This document shows positions 11,002 to 61,992 of a DNA stretch of 64,000 nucleotides, one piece after another. Each line of letters begins with the position of its first letter. Position 1 is the first letter of the stretch. The notes below the pieces were generated by a model. The model was not told where the DNA came from. It saw only the letters and a program-made list of their open reading frames with translations, and made no database searches. The translations under genes and the position numbers were made by a program. Source of the stretch: an uncultured Bacillota bacterium (GTDB lineage Bacteria; Bacillota; Clostridia; Peptostreptococcales; Anaerovoracaceae); assembly GCA_949287095.1 (NCBI GenBank), contig CASEFA010000007.1, positions 51,005 through 115,004 on the forward strand. The letters are read 5' to 3'.

Positions 11002-11312
11002 GCCTGCGGCAGGGACAACGATTTATCGTAAATAATAATGGTAATGTCAGCTTCGACAAAGGCGTCCGTTTTCGGCGGTTTTGTCGAAGCTTTTTCGGCT
11101 TCAGGGGCCGCATTTTCAGGTTTTGTCGAAGATTCATCGGTCAAAACCTGCATAGCCCCTCGTATTTTTCGGCAGATTCCGTTTTCTCGTCAAAAATGTC
11201 GAAAAAGCCTTCGACAACTTGACGGTAAACCCGTTTCATTGTCGAAGACTTCCTTAAAATCTTATTATTCCATTAGGCCAACCACGCGCGGCGCAGGCTT
11301 TGCTGGCTCTTT
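11002..11312. other. Convergent intergenic gap holding array element A
   Basis: No gene is supported. The gap between the flavoprotein gene and asnS (convergent) is largely filled by the inverted half-site array listed separately at 11053-11245. Confidence 0.7.
11053..11245. repeat. Inverted half-site array, element A (word TCGAC/GTCGA)
   Basis: Half-sites: TCGAC 11053-57, GTCGA 11083-87, TCGGC 11095-99, GTCGA 11125-29, TCGGC 11169-73, GTCGA 11198-202, TCGAC 11211-15, GTCGA 11241-45. Spacers are 25, 7, 25, 39, 24, 8 and 25 bp. Six half-sites are exact and two have one change. Most are flanked to give CTTCGAC/GTCGAAG. The layout equals that of element B at 16361, although the sequence between half-sites is mostly different; both end in a shared TTCCTTAAAA a few bases after the last half-site. 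Function is unknown. Confidence 0.8.
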
Positions 11313-12707
11313 TTAAAACTCGGCGTTCTTCGGCGTTCTCGGGAACGGAAGCACGTCGCGGATGTTGCTCATGCCCGTCAGATACATGATCATGCGCTCA
11401 AAGCCCAGTCCGTAACCTGCGTGCTTTACTCCGCCGTAGCGGCGAAGATCCAGATACCATCCGTACATTTCTTTGTCAAGGCCCATCTCGTCCATGCGGC
11501 TTTCCAGAATATCGAGGCGCTCCTCTCTCTGGCTTCCGCCGATGATCTCGCCGACTCCCGGAACCAGAAGGTCGCAGGCGGCAACGGTCTTTCCGTCGTC
11601 GTTGAGTCTCATGTAGAAGGCCTTAATGTCCTTAGGGTAATCGGTTACGAAGAGAGGCTTTTTGAATATCTCCTCCGTAAGGTACCTCTCGTGCTCAGTC
11701 TGAAGGTCGATTCCCCACTCAACGGGATACTGGAATTCCTTGCCGGATTTTTTCAGGAGCTCCACTGCCTCAGTGTAGGTGACTCTTCCAAAGTCGGAGT
11801 TCACTATGTGATCCAGCCTCTCCAGAAGTCCCTTGTCTATGAAGCTGTTGAAGAACGCCATCTCTTCAGGAGCGTTTTCTCTCACGTAGGTGATGATGTA
11901 CTTCACCATTTCCTCGGCCAGCTCCATGTTGTCCTCAAGATCCGCAAAGGCTATTTCCGGTTCTATCATCCAGAACTCGGACGCGTGTCTTGCGGTGTTG
12001 GAATTTTCGGCGCGGAATGTAGGGCCGAAGGTGTATATGTTTCTGAACGCCATGGCAAAGGCCTCGCCCTCCAGCTGTCCGCTTACGGTAAGGCTGGTCT
12101 CTTTTCCGAAGAAGTCCTCGGCGTAATCTATTTTTCCGTCTTCAGTCTTTGGCGGATTTTCCATATTAAGGGTAGTTACCCTGAACATCTCCCCTGCGCC
12201 TTCGCAGTCGCTTCCCGTGATAAGCGGGGTGTGCACGTAAACAAAGTGCTTTTCCTGGAAGAATTTATGTATTGCATAGGCTACCAGAGAGCGTACTCTG
12301 AACACTGCGGAGAAAGTGTTGCTTCTCGGTCTCAGATGTGCTATCTCTCTGAGAAACTCCATGGAGTGTCTCTTCTTCTGGAGCGGGTAATCGGCGTCTG
12401 CGCCGGCCTCTATGGTCACTTCGCTGGCCTTTATCTCAAAAGGCTGCTTTGCCTCGGGAGTAAGCTCCACCTTTCCCTTTACACAAAGAGCTGCCGAAAT
12501 GGGCGCCTTTGAAACCACGTCGAAGTTATCTATTTTATCTGCTTCGTAAACTACCTGAACGGATTTGAAAAAGCTGCCGTCATTCAGCTCTATGAACCCG
12601 AACTTGTTGGAATTTCTATTAGTTCTGACCCAGCCTCTCACTGTTATTTCCGCATCTGCATAGGCGTCGGTGTTCCTGTGTAGCTCTCTGAGCTGTACGT
12701 CTTTCAT
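11313..12707 (-). CDS. asnS: Asparagine--tRNA ligase
   Basis: 464 residues of class II aminoacyl-tRNA synthetase. An N-terminal OB fold (VRGWVRTNRNSNKFGFIELNDGS) is followed by the catalytic core with FRVRSLVAYAIHKFF, FRAENSNTARHASEFWMIEPE (motif 2 region) and the C-terminal YGLGFERMIMYLTG (motif 3). AENSNTxRH with a short catalytic domain identifies AsnRS rather than AspRS. The start at 12707 follows GAGGAGG; an in-frame ATG at 12722 has none. There is no T-box in the 100-bp upstream gap. Confidence 0.96.
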   Translation of the reverse strand: MKDVQLRELHRNTDAYADAEITVRGWVRTNRNSNKFGFIELNDGSFFKSVQVVYEADKIDNFDVVSKAPISAALCVKGKVELTPEAKQPFEIKASEVTIEAGADADYPLQKKRHSMEFLREIAHLRPRSNTFSAVFRVRSLVAYAIHKFFQEKHFVYVHTPLITGSDCEGAGEMFRVTTLNMENPPKTEDGKIDYAEDFFGKETSLTVSGQLEGEAFAMAFRNIYTFGPTFRAENSNTARHASEFWMIEPEIAFADLEDNMELAEEMVKYIITYVRENAPEEMAFFNSFIDKGLLERLDHIVNSDFGRVTYTEAVELLKKSGKEFQYPVEWGIDLQTEHERYLTEEIFKKPLFVTDYPKDIKAFYMRLNDDGKTVAACDLLVPGVGEIIGGSQREERLDILESRMDEMGLDKEMYGWYLDLRRYGGVKHAGYGLGFERMIMYLTGMSNIRDVLPFPRTPKNAEF

Positions 12708-12808
12708 CTTTTTCCTCCTCATTTTATTTTTTGCGCCGGTAAAACTTCCTGCCGGAGATTTATGAACGCTTTATACAGTTTACCAATTAAACGGCGTGAT
12801 TTCAAGCA

Positions 12809-60327: not shown

Positions 60328-60329
60328 GA

Positions 60330-61382
60330 TTATCTTGTCTCCTTCTCTTCGGTCTTTTTCTTTTTCCCTTTAATTTTGACTGCGGCCACATAGACAGCTA
60401 TGCCTGCAATCACCGCTGCGGCTGCAATATATATCCAGGTATAATCCGCAGGCGGCTCAAAGTCGTCGGTAAGCCTGTACAGAGAAATTGTATCCACGAA
60501 ATCGCCCTGGATAATTCTCTCTTCATCATAAGGCAGCTCTTCCCCGCCCATGACTACCGATATAAACTGATACCCGTCTTTCTCCAGGCATCCTGTAAAG
60601 TTATATCCCGACGCCGGAATCCATCCCGTCTTCACTCCCGTCATGTACTGTGAGTACGGGCTTTCGTATCTGTCGTCAGGGAACATCACGTAGTTGGTGG
60701 TGTAGTAGTCGTATCCTTCATCTCTCACATTTGACGGCGGAATCGTGCCGCTTTCGTGGGATACGGCCTCTCTGAATGCGTCAAATGTCATGGCGTATTC
60801 CGCAATCTTCACCATGTCCCTTGCAGTGATTTTGTTGGAAGAGGATATTCCCGTAGGATCCATGTACGACGTGTTTTCACACCCGAGCTCCTTAGCCTTC
60901 TCGTTCATCATGTCGACAAAAGCGTGAAAGTCTCCGTCGCCGAGTTCAAAGGCAAAAGACGTTGCCGCTTCGTTTGCAGAACAAACCAGCATGTACTGCA
61001 TGCAGTCCTTATATGATATTTCTTCTCCTGCCTCCAGATGATACGTAGGCGTCATAGAGCTGCAGTAATATGAACTTACCGCATCCTCGCTTACCGTCAG
61101 GGTTCCTTCCAGCTCAGGATTCTCCTCCAGAACGATAATCGCCGTCATGACCTTCGTCATGCTCGCCGGCGCCCTCACTTCATCGGCATTTTCCTCAAAC
61201 AGAACTGTTCCTGTAGTTGTTTCGTACAGTATTCCCGCAGCAGAATTGGGAATTCCCGGTTCCTGTTCCATAGGGTCCGGCGTGCCGGCGCTTTCTTCTG
61301 CAAATACCGCAGGCGCAGCAGCCGATGACAAAACAAGCACCAGAGCCGCAACAAGCCCTGCCATACGTTTTAGTCTCCTCAT
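60330..61382 (-). CDS. dacA: D-alanyl-D-alanine carboxypeptidase (S11, DacA-like)
   Basis: 350 residues. A cleavable signal peptide is at residues 1-28 (LVAALVLVLSSAAAPAVFA). The active-site motifs are SMTK (PASMTKVMTAII), SAN (CSANEAATSF) and KTG (GVKTGWIPASG). A C-terminal membrane segment (YTWIYIAAAAVIAGIAVYVAAV) and a basic tail anchor it outside the cell. It trims peptidoglycan stem peptides. AGGAGG about 12 bases before the ATG. Confidence 0.93.
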   Translation of the reverse strand: MRRLKRMAGLVAALVLVLSSAAAPAVFAEESAGTPDPMEQEPGIPNSAAGILYETTTGTVLFEENADEVRAPASMTKVMTAIIVLEENPELEGTLTVSEDAVSSYYCSSMTPTYHLEAGEEISYKDCMQYMLVCSANEAATSFAFELGDGDFHAFVDMMNEKAKELGCENTSYMDPTGISSSNKITARDMVKIAEYAMTFDAFREAVSHESGTIPPSNVRDEGYDYYTTNYVMFPDDRYESPYSQYMTGVKTGWIPASGYNFTGCLEKDGYQFISVVMGGEELPYDEERIIQGDFVDTISLYRLTDDFEPPADYTWIYIAAAAVIAGIAVYVAAVKIKGKKKKTEEKETR

Positions 61383-61992
61383 TTTCTCGTCATTCCTCCT
61401 GAATCGTCACAGTTTATGCCGGCATGAATCAACCGGCAGACATAATTTTTATCTAATGATAGAGTATCACTGTCCGGGTGAAAAATCAAAGGTTATATGT
61501 ATACCGGACGGGTTCCGGGCAAAGAATATATTTAACTGATGCGAGAACATGTCTCAACTCATTCCGATTGGGTACAGAAAGAGTTCATATCCCTCTGCTT
61601 ACATCCTTCAATCAGTCCGGCATATCTTGTATCTTGTGGGATTGTTGGCTTGTGGACTTGTGGGCCGAAAAAGCTGAAAACAACAGTTGCGGCCGACGAA
61701 ATCTGTGCCACTTCGAGTTGGAATCAGAGATGTGGCCGAGAAAACAGCCGTTACGGCCCTGACAGAGGGGCGAAAATCTTGGCCACATGTTGAAATTTTG
61801 GCGATTTTGCAGTAAAATCTGTGGGCCGCGAACCGGGAAACAGGAGTAGGCGGCCCAGCTGCGTGCCTGCCCCGCCGCCCACGGTTTAAGAAACCGGATA
61901 CGATAATAGTAGAAATTTTAATGGAAAAAGAGCAGGGAATGGTAGAGTATCGGCATCAGATATATTATAATTAAAAAAAGGAGGGTAGGAAA
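61383..61992. other. Intergenic region upstream of dacA holding array element G
   Basis: About 610 bp without a supported gene; includes the dacA leader on the left (no convincing promoter pair) and array G at 61661-61857. Confidence 0.5.
61661..61857. repeat. Inverted half-site array, element G (words TGGGC/GCCGA/GCCCA; tentative)
   Basis: Half-sites: TGGGC 61661-65, GCCGA 61692-96, TGTGC 61704-08, GCCGA 61735-39, TTGGC 61779-83, GCAGT 61809-13, TGGGC 61822-26, GCCCA 61853-57. Spacers are 26, 7, 26, 39, 25, 8 and 26 bp. The outline matches elements A and B including the 39-bp centre, but the words are less uniform and two half-sites are poor. Fit was made after knowing the pattern, so it is weaker evidence than B and D. 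Confidence 0.5.

Follow-up and report, generated by a model that had tools for sequence, protein, structure and literature searches.

In bacteria, repetitive extragenic palindromic (REP) sequences and bacterial interspersed mosaic elements (BIMEs) are intergenic inverted repeats dispersed in many lineage-specific copies, and the gene of their enzyme, the REP-associated tyrosine transposase (RAYT), is flanked by two repeats of its own; the inter-REP segments of described BIMEs vary in length (PMC2817692, in the part of the text available). BOX, RUP and SPRITE of pneumococcus are likewise small dispersed repeats, thought to be non-autonomous, but they are defined by sequence and RNA fold, and the available part of PMC3049150 describes no word-changing geometry or nuclease partner for them. 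Here, we analysed a stretch of 64,000 nucleotides (the window) of an uncultured Bacillota bacterium (assembly GCA_949287095.1, contig CASEFA010000007.1, positions 51,005 to 115,004 of the forward strand) and found intergenic arrays that share with the REP/BIME-RAYT system the traits named above, but in which one unit holds eight half-sites, the half-site word differs between families, the spacers keep their length to one base where inter-REP segments vary, and the accompanying enzyme is not a Y1 transposase. These arrays have one geometry, occur in three word families, are dispersed over a single genus while their spacers drift in sequence, and copies of a gene for a protein of 264 amino acids (264 aa) lie between arrays of one and the same family. 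This link to a gene is the main new result and lies outside what was observed in the original prediction, an earlier reading of the window that had noticed six elements built on a common spacing.

From four genomes of one genus, we collected 107 arrays of families I and II (38 in the own genome, 45 in G001, 10 in G002 and 14 in G003, the last three being covered in part). Family I comprises 39 arrays with the half-site TTTGAC/CTTGAC and a centre of 33 bp, and family II comprises 68 with TTCGAY and TTCGGC and a centre of 42-44. Family III, sought in the four genus genomes, has the half-site TSGGCC and gave 44 matches (14 in the own genome; 4, 16 and 10 in the others). According to a consensus made by eye from 28 copies, its half-sites lie at 30-13-30 / 44 / 30-13-30, the centre of the window copy being 45, and site 6 is replaced by a conserved GCAGTA, as was also scanned in one copy.

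The 264-aa gene has paralogues, with 12 distinct copies detected by tblastn in the loci examined, which were mostly selected for their arrays. A family I, II or III array lies within 211 bp of eight of these copies, and six of the eight stand between two arrays of one family, namely family I at L048, family II at L143 and family III at L103, L307, L321 and L328, which is the RAYT-like arrangement with a different enzyme. The copies at L023 and L106 adjoin one family II array, the former without a full-length frame and without room on its other side, and the remaining four of the 12 are the window gene and its orthologues, with a weaker array, element C, upstream. As a control, we counted the 91 genes of the own contig C7: an array is found within 211 bp of 11 of them, and none is enclosed by two. 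Six further places, matched by the gene's own DNA in three relatives, form a less biased set: three are between family III arrays, one is next to a family II array and one is next to an array of GGGCCA half-sites. In this last array (L351), 15 GGGCCA half-sites follow about 20 bp after the gene where 1.58 are expected (0 of 200 shuffles); the first 14 strictly alternate, with steps of 52 or 53 bp per strand and a last step of 33, a layout that differs from that of the eight-site arrays.

The window contains the gene and six elements:

Element A, 11052..11246, no strand: family II array; copies elsewhere align over about 11050-11263.
Element B, 16360..16555, no strand: family II array; copies align over about 16353-16568.
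264-aa gene, 23029..23823, minus strand: predicted PD-(D/E)XK-like nuclease; paralogues adjoin arrays of families I, II and III and of at least one more word.
Element C, 23954..24156, no strand: weak array with half-sites TAAAC/TCTAC and a centre of 54 in 5-mer starts, about 130 bp upstream of the 264-aa gene.
Element D, 33835..34021, no strand: family I array with a central hairpin.
Element E, 40839..40957, no strand: family I remnant consisting of the central hairpin and the right arm only.
Element F, 61657..61858, no strand: family III array; half-sites start at 61661, 61691, 61704, 61734, 61779, 61809 (replaced), 61822 and 61852.

The original prediction had put all six elements on one plan of paired inverted half-sites mirrored around a centre. 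A, B and D bear this out as intact two-armed arrays, with TTCGAC in eight of eight half-sites of B, TTGAC in seven of eight and TTTAC in one of eight in D, both as predicted, and TTCGGC at two half-sites of A; they are also the only two-armed elements that a scanner built from the half-site words found in the window (none in 6 shuffles). The strict pattern TNNAC-N25-GTNNA-N8-TNNAC-N25-GTNNA has four matches in the window, two of them being the arms of D and the others the right arms of B and E, but not one in 100 dinucleotide shuffles. Chance was rejected as the source of the arrays, since shuffled sequence yielded no such arrays. For E, the right arm and the centre are retained, the former being its sole scoring arm (64.8 bits with the arm model described below), yet its two-armed score of 29/40 only equals the best of 12 shuffles. 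F has the same layout (30/40, where the best of 12 shuffles reached 27) but belongs to a family of its own and has lost site 6 to another sequence, and C, at 29/40, is one point above its best shuffle (28, again of 12). Judged alone, C and F are thus weak, and both are strengthened by relatives; for C the main support is that its conserved boxes are present in three related species, and we regard it as a weaker, single-locus relative.

A covariance model of one arm was built from 13 arms and covers families I and II. In the own genome it gave 106 matches at E <= 0.5, and 38 of the 41 places picked from these are intact two-armed arrays with at least 40 of 48 letters agreeing; seven places were left out of the 41, of which four are weak and three (C18:36, C11:75 and C12:38346) are cut short or lie where a contig ends. 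The absence of further copies had been named as what would speak against the original prediction; because copies turned up both in the own genome and in related ones, it was not overturned on this point. Searches of more than 40 genomes were run with stricter filters, the two largest scoring 10-14 candidates per genome. The arm model matches all four genus genomes and none of 37 other relatives; it matches five of 296 genomes in a sample of the family, the fifth with one weak single copy, and only the own genome in a sample of 391 from the class. Hence, the family I/II model matches essentially nothing outside the genus. A weak match in G193, of another genus, was rejected: it consists of one TTCGAC/GTCGAA copy, spaced differently and located where a contig begins (L279:85-360), and the 3 kb read there contain no homologue of the 264-aa gene.

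The geometry is kept closely throughout the 107 arrays. The spacing between sites 1 and 2 is 31 bp in 95 arrays and 30 in 12, each of the four pair spacings is 31 except in 10 to 15 arrays, where it is 30, and the short linkers measure 12, apart from 15 and 8 arrays in which they measure 11. The one-base limit is partly built in, since the scanner allowed only one base more or less for pair spacings and linkers (the centre was searched freely); no spacing of 32 and no linker of 13 was seen, though both were allowed. Direct site-to-site distances are independent of the point chosen as the start of the word. Sites 1 and 3 are 43 bp apart in the majority of arrays in all three families, and the step from site 3 to site 5 is 64 in family I, 74 in family II and most family III copies (75 in F) and about 84 in C. 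Because all these distances lie within 1.5 bp of multiples of 10.5, the half-sites presumably face one side of the helix. Two scans were made without assuming a word. The first, over 390 kb of four contigs, found only TTYGAC-type arrays, with A among those missed. The second, over 1,113,034 bases around AsnS in 80 other genomes, gave one poly-A match, and it says little about other words because on contig C7, its positive control, it recovered B and D but not A, C7:41355, E, C or either copy of F.

Half-sites are maintained while spacers drift. In 14 pairs of arrays at loci shared by the own genome and G001, 628 of 672 half-site letters agree, compared with 973 of 1359 in the long spacers and 1124 of 1534 in the outer 60 bp, although some of these spacers are so different that the copies may not correspond and the scanner favours intact half-sites. 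Countering this bias, 106 of the 107 weaker arms score at least 21 bits though 6 would have passed, and in six pairs from syntenic contigs the agreement is 273/288 for half-sites versus 469/583 for spacers. The prediction that spacing rather than sequence is conserved was therefore confirmed, with spacer lengths within one base and free spacer sequence, and this fits a protein complex on one DNA face. Its statement that copies have little sequence in common is true of arrays from different families; members of one family share their half-sites, short flanks and the linker that joins sites 2 and 3.

The 264-aa protein is predicted to be a PD-(D/E)XK-like nuclease, on account of a profile match and of conserved E, D and E residues. 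NCBIfam and Pfam hold no family for it (NERD appears at 0.15). Residues 139-262 match the end of the PADLOC PDC-S68 model (2.1e-28) and residues 154-227 match PADLOC HEAT_CxxC_PDDEXK (6e-4). In 19 sequences, RSKSE, E162, D192 (PDF motif) and E207-H208 are invariant, with E-H-x-G in place of ExK. The predicted structure is confident (pLDDT 89), and comparison of its N-terminal part returned coiled-coil and prefoldin-like rows only. PDC-S68, a set of defence candidates in PADLOC-DB to which the likeness is a profile match only, shares a homologous C-terminal domain of about 125 residues, and presumably ends in a PD-(D/E)XK-type nuclease; there, however, the domain closes a protein of about 1200 residues, whereas here it follows a short N-terminal part in 264 aa encoded beside arrays. 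A single-sequence search gave 15 proteins and a profile search 465 at E <= 0.001, seeds included, so the system may extend beyond the genus. In viral and plasmid collections only the nuclease-like domain was matched; the plasmid matches fall within genes that carry the annotation AAA family ATPase.

Taken together, we consider it fairly probable that arrays and genes form cognate pairs which work like REP and RAYT with an unrelated enzyme, the protein likely binding the arrays of its own family. The predicted nuclease would bind as an oligomer, one subunit perhaps reading one half-site, and by analogy with what has been proposed for RAYT enzymes and REP repeats it might copy, mobilise or maintain the arrays; solo arrays would then be non-autonomous copies and array-gene-array units autonomous ones. 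Weighing against this is L352, the sixth of the places matched by the gene's own DNA, where only a weak candidate array was found (32/40, while an unrelated part of that locus scored 31). The original prediction had suggested a protein lattice or higher-order complex and had left the binder open. The fixed spacing agrees with a complex, and the association with a gene family, which had gone unseen, points to a nuclease-repeat system rather than a nucleoid lattice and supplies a candidate for the partner. That arrays and partner gene form a new class rests on the failed assignment to the known systems and on the literature, in which no description of such arrays or of the 264-aa protein occurred among the matches listed. 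If true, this would be a bacterial repeat class defined by geometry instead of sequence, directly testable because a candidate partner protein is at hand, and the different words on the same layout would form a natural series from which to learn how a small DNA-binding protein comes to recognise another target. More tentatively, the pairs could belong to a general repeat-nuclease system of Clostridia, in which each paralogue of a broad, Pfam-less small nuclease family has its own word and helically phased arrays (with a 43-bp or 52-bp repeat), word and protein co-evolving while the geometry of the complex stays fixed.

Two other explanations ascribe the arrays to different functions or movers. 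They might be chromosomal boundary elements, spread once and since kept because a bound protein complex separates or terminates transcription units, the neighbouring nuclease-like genes being only their old source. This agrees with the maintenance of half-sites in drifting spacers and with the gene orientations: the 98 arrays with genes on both sides lie in 43 convergent, 50 tandem and 5 divergent gaps (9 more are at locus edges; orthologous arrays are counted more than once), against 38 convergent, 207 tandem and 37 divergent of 282 background gaps on three contigs, or 19, 38 and 24 of the 81 gaps of at least 200 bp. Five of five family I/II arrays of C7 also have an array beside at least one same flank in G001, and the family I centres fold strongly (z -5.0 for D, -7.5 for E). 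However, a loss of insertions that hit promoters would be expected to produce this orientation bias too, and arms of both A and D have disappeared in G003. A scan for terminators gave no such site at the centre of either D or E, and B has a centre that folds only weakly (z -2.6 and -1.5). The gene-array link is also left unexplained. We regard boundary elements as unlikely. Classical miniature inverted-repeat transposable elements (MITEs), moved by a transposase recognising their ends, would account for the terminal inverted repeats (sites 1 and 8 of families I and II), the dispersed copies with sharp ends, the genus-specific spread and the element GC of 41-43% versus 50% in the window. Nevertheless, a flank scan of 2-9 bp revealed no clear excess of target-site duplications over re-paired flanks (36 and 60 non-redundant arrays), the largest signal being 7 against a null maximum of 6 for family II at 3 bp, and interior sites 2, 4, 5 and 7 show much the same conservation as the terminal sites, sites 3 and 6 being less conserved in family I. 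The gene between paired arrays is moreover nuclease-like, and Y1_Tnp (PF01797), the transposase family searched for, is present in two of four genomes, with none in G002 or in G001, which has the most arm matches, and no array around the Y1_Tnp genes within loci of 1.7-2.0 kb each. We judge MITEs improbable.

A structured RNA or terminator family is more improbable still. It finds support in family II, where sites 4 and 5 covary strongly (88 double changes versus 40.1; 0 of 500 shuffles) and agree in 21 of 26 non-redundant arrays (words TTCGATG and TTCGACC), and in the central hairpins of D and E. Yet 4-5 is the one of 28 family II site pairs that stands out, 2-5, 4-8 and 5-8 being weaker and the rest not clear, spacer lengths are fixed though spacer sequence is free, and at gathering scores Rfam matched a tRNA and nothing else in the window. 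Family I lacks covariation for a nested hairpin, for four hairpins and for the centre, and RNA secondary structure was accordingly rejected as the cause of the layout. Since only the innermost pair agrees strongly in family II, half-sites appear to pick their word largely independently except at the centre. Cognate nuclease-array pairs remain the reading that we prefer, as the most economical one that accounts for the genes as well.

Some further differences between the genomes were observed. G002 has a family II unit where both G003 and the own genome have none, and it has a family I array that is missing from the own genome; in neither case is the junction clean. Inserts beside arrays in relatives resemble ordinary genes as judged by eye, except for one mobile element; a single recombinase was searched against families. 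In G001, a family II array has a gene for a tyrosine recombinase (Phage_integrase; L291:6537-7409) at a distance of about 120 bp. On contig C13 of G002 (L284, L285), the first spacer of B is interrupted by a 6.5-kb element that has an 8-bp repeat at its borders and carries, as read from translations, a relaxase-like and an integrase-like gene. At L049, L051, L053 and L127, family III arrays are close to family I arrays or remnants. In the window itself, three direct repeats of 22-23 bp of the TTTGAGCCGGCTTTGAAGCAGG type adjoin D (33767-33834), and GC-rich direct repeats of the GGTGGGCGGCGGCCCGATGCAGCG type lie between C and serS (24214-24309).
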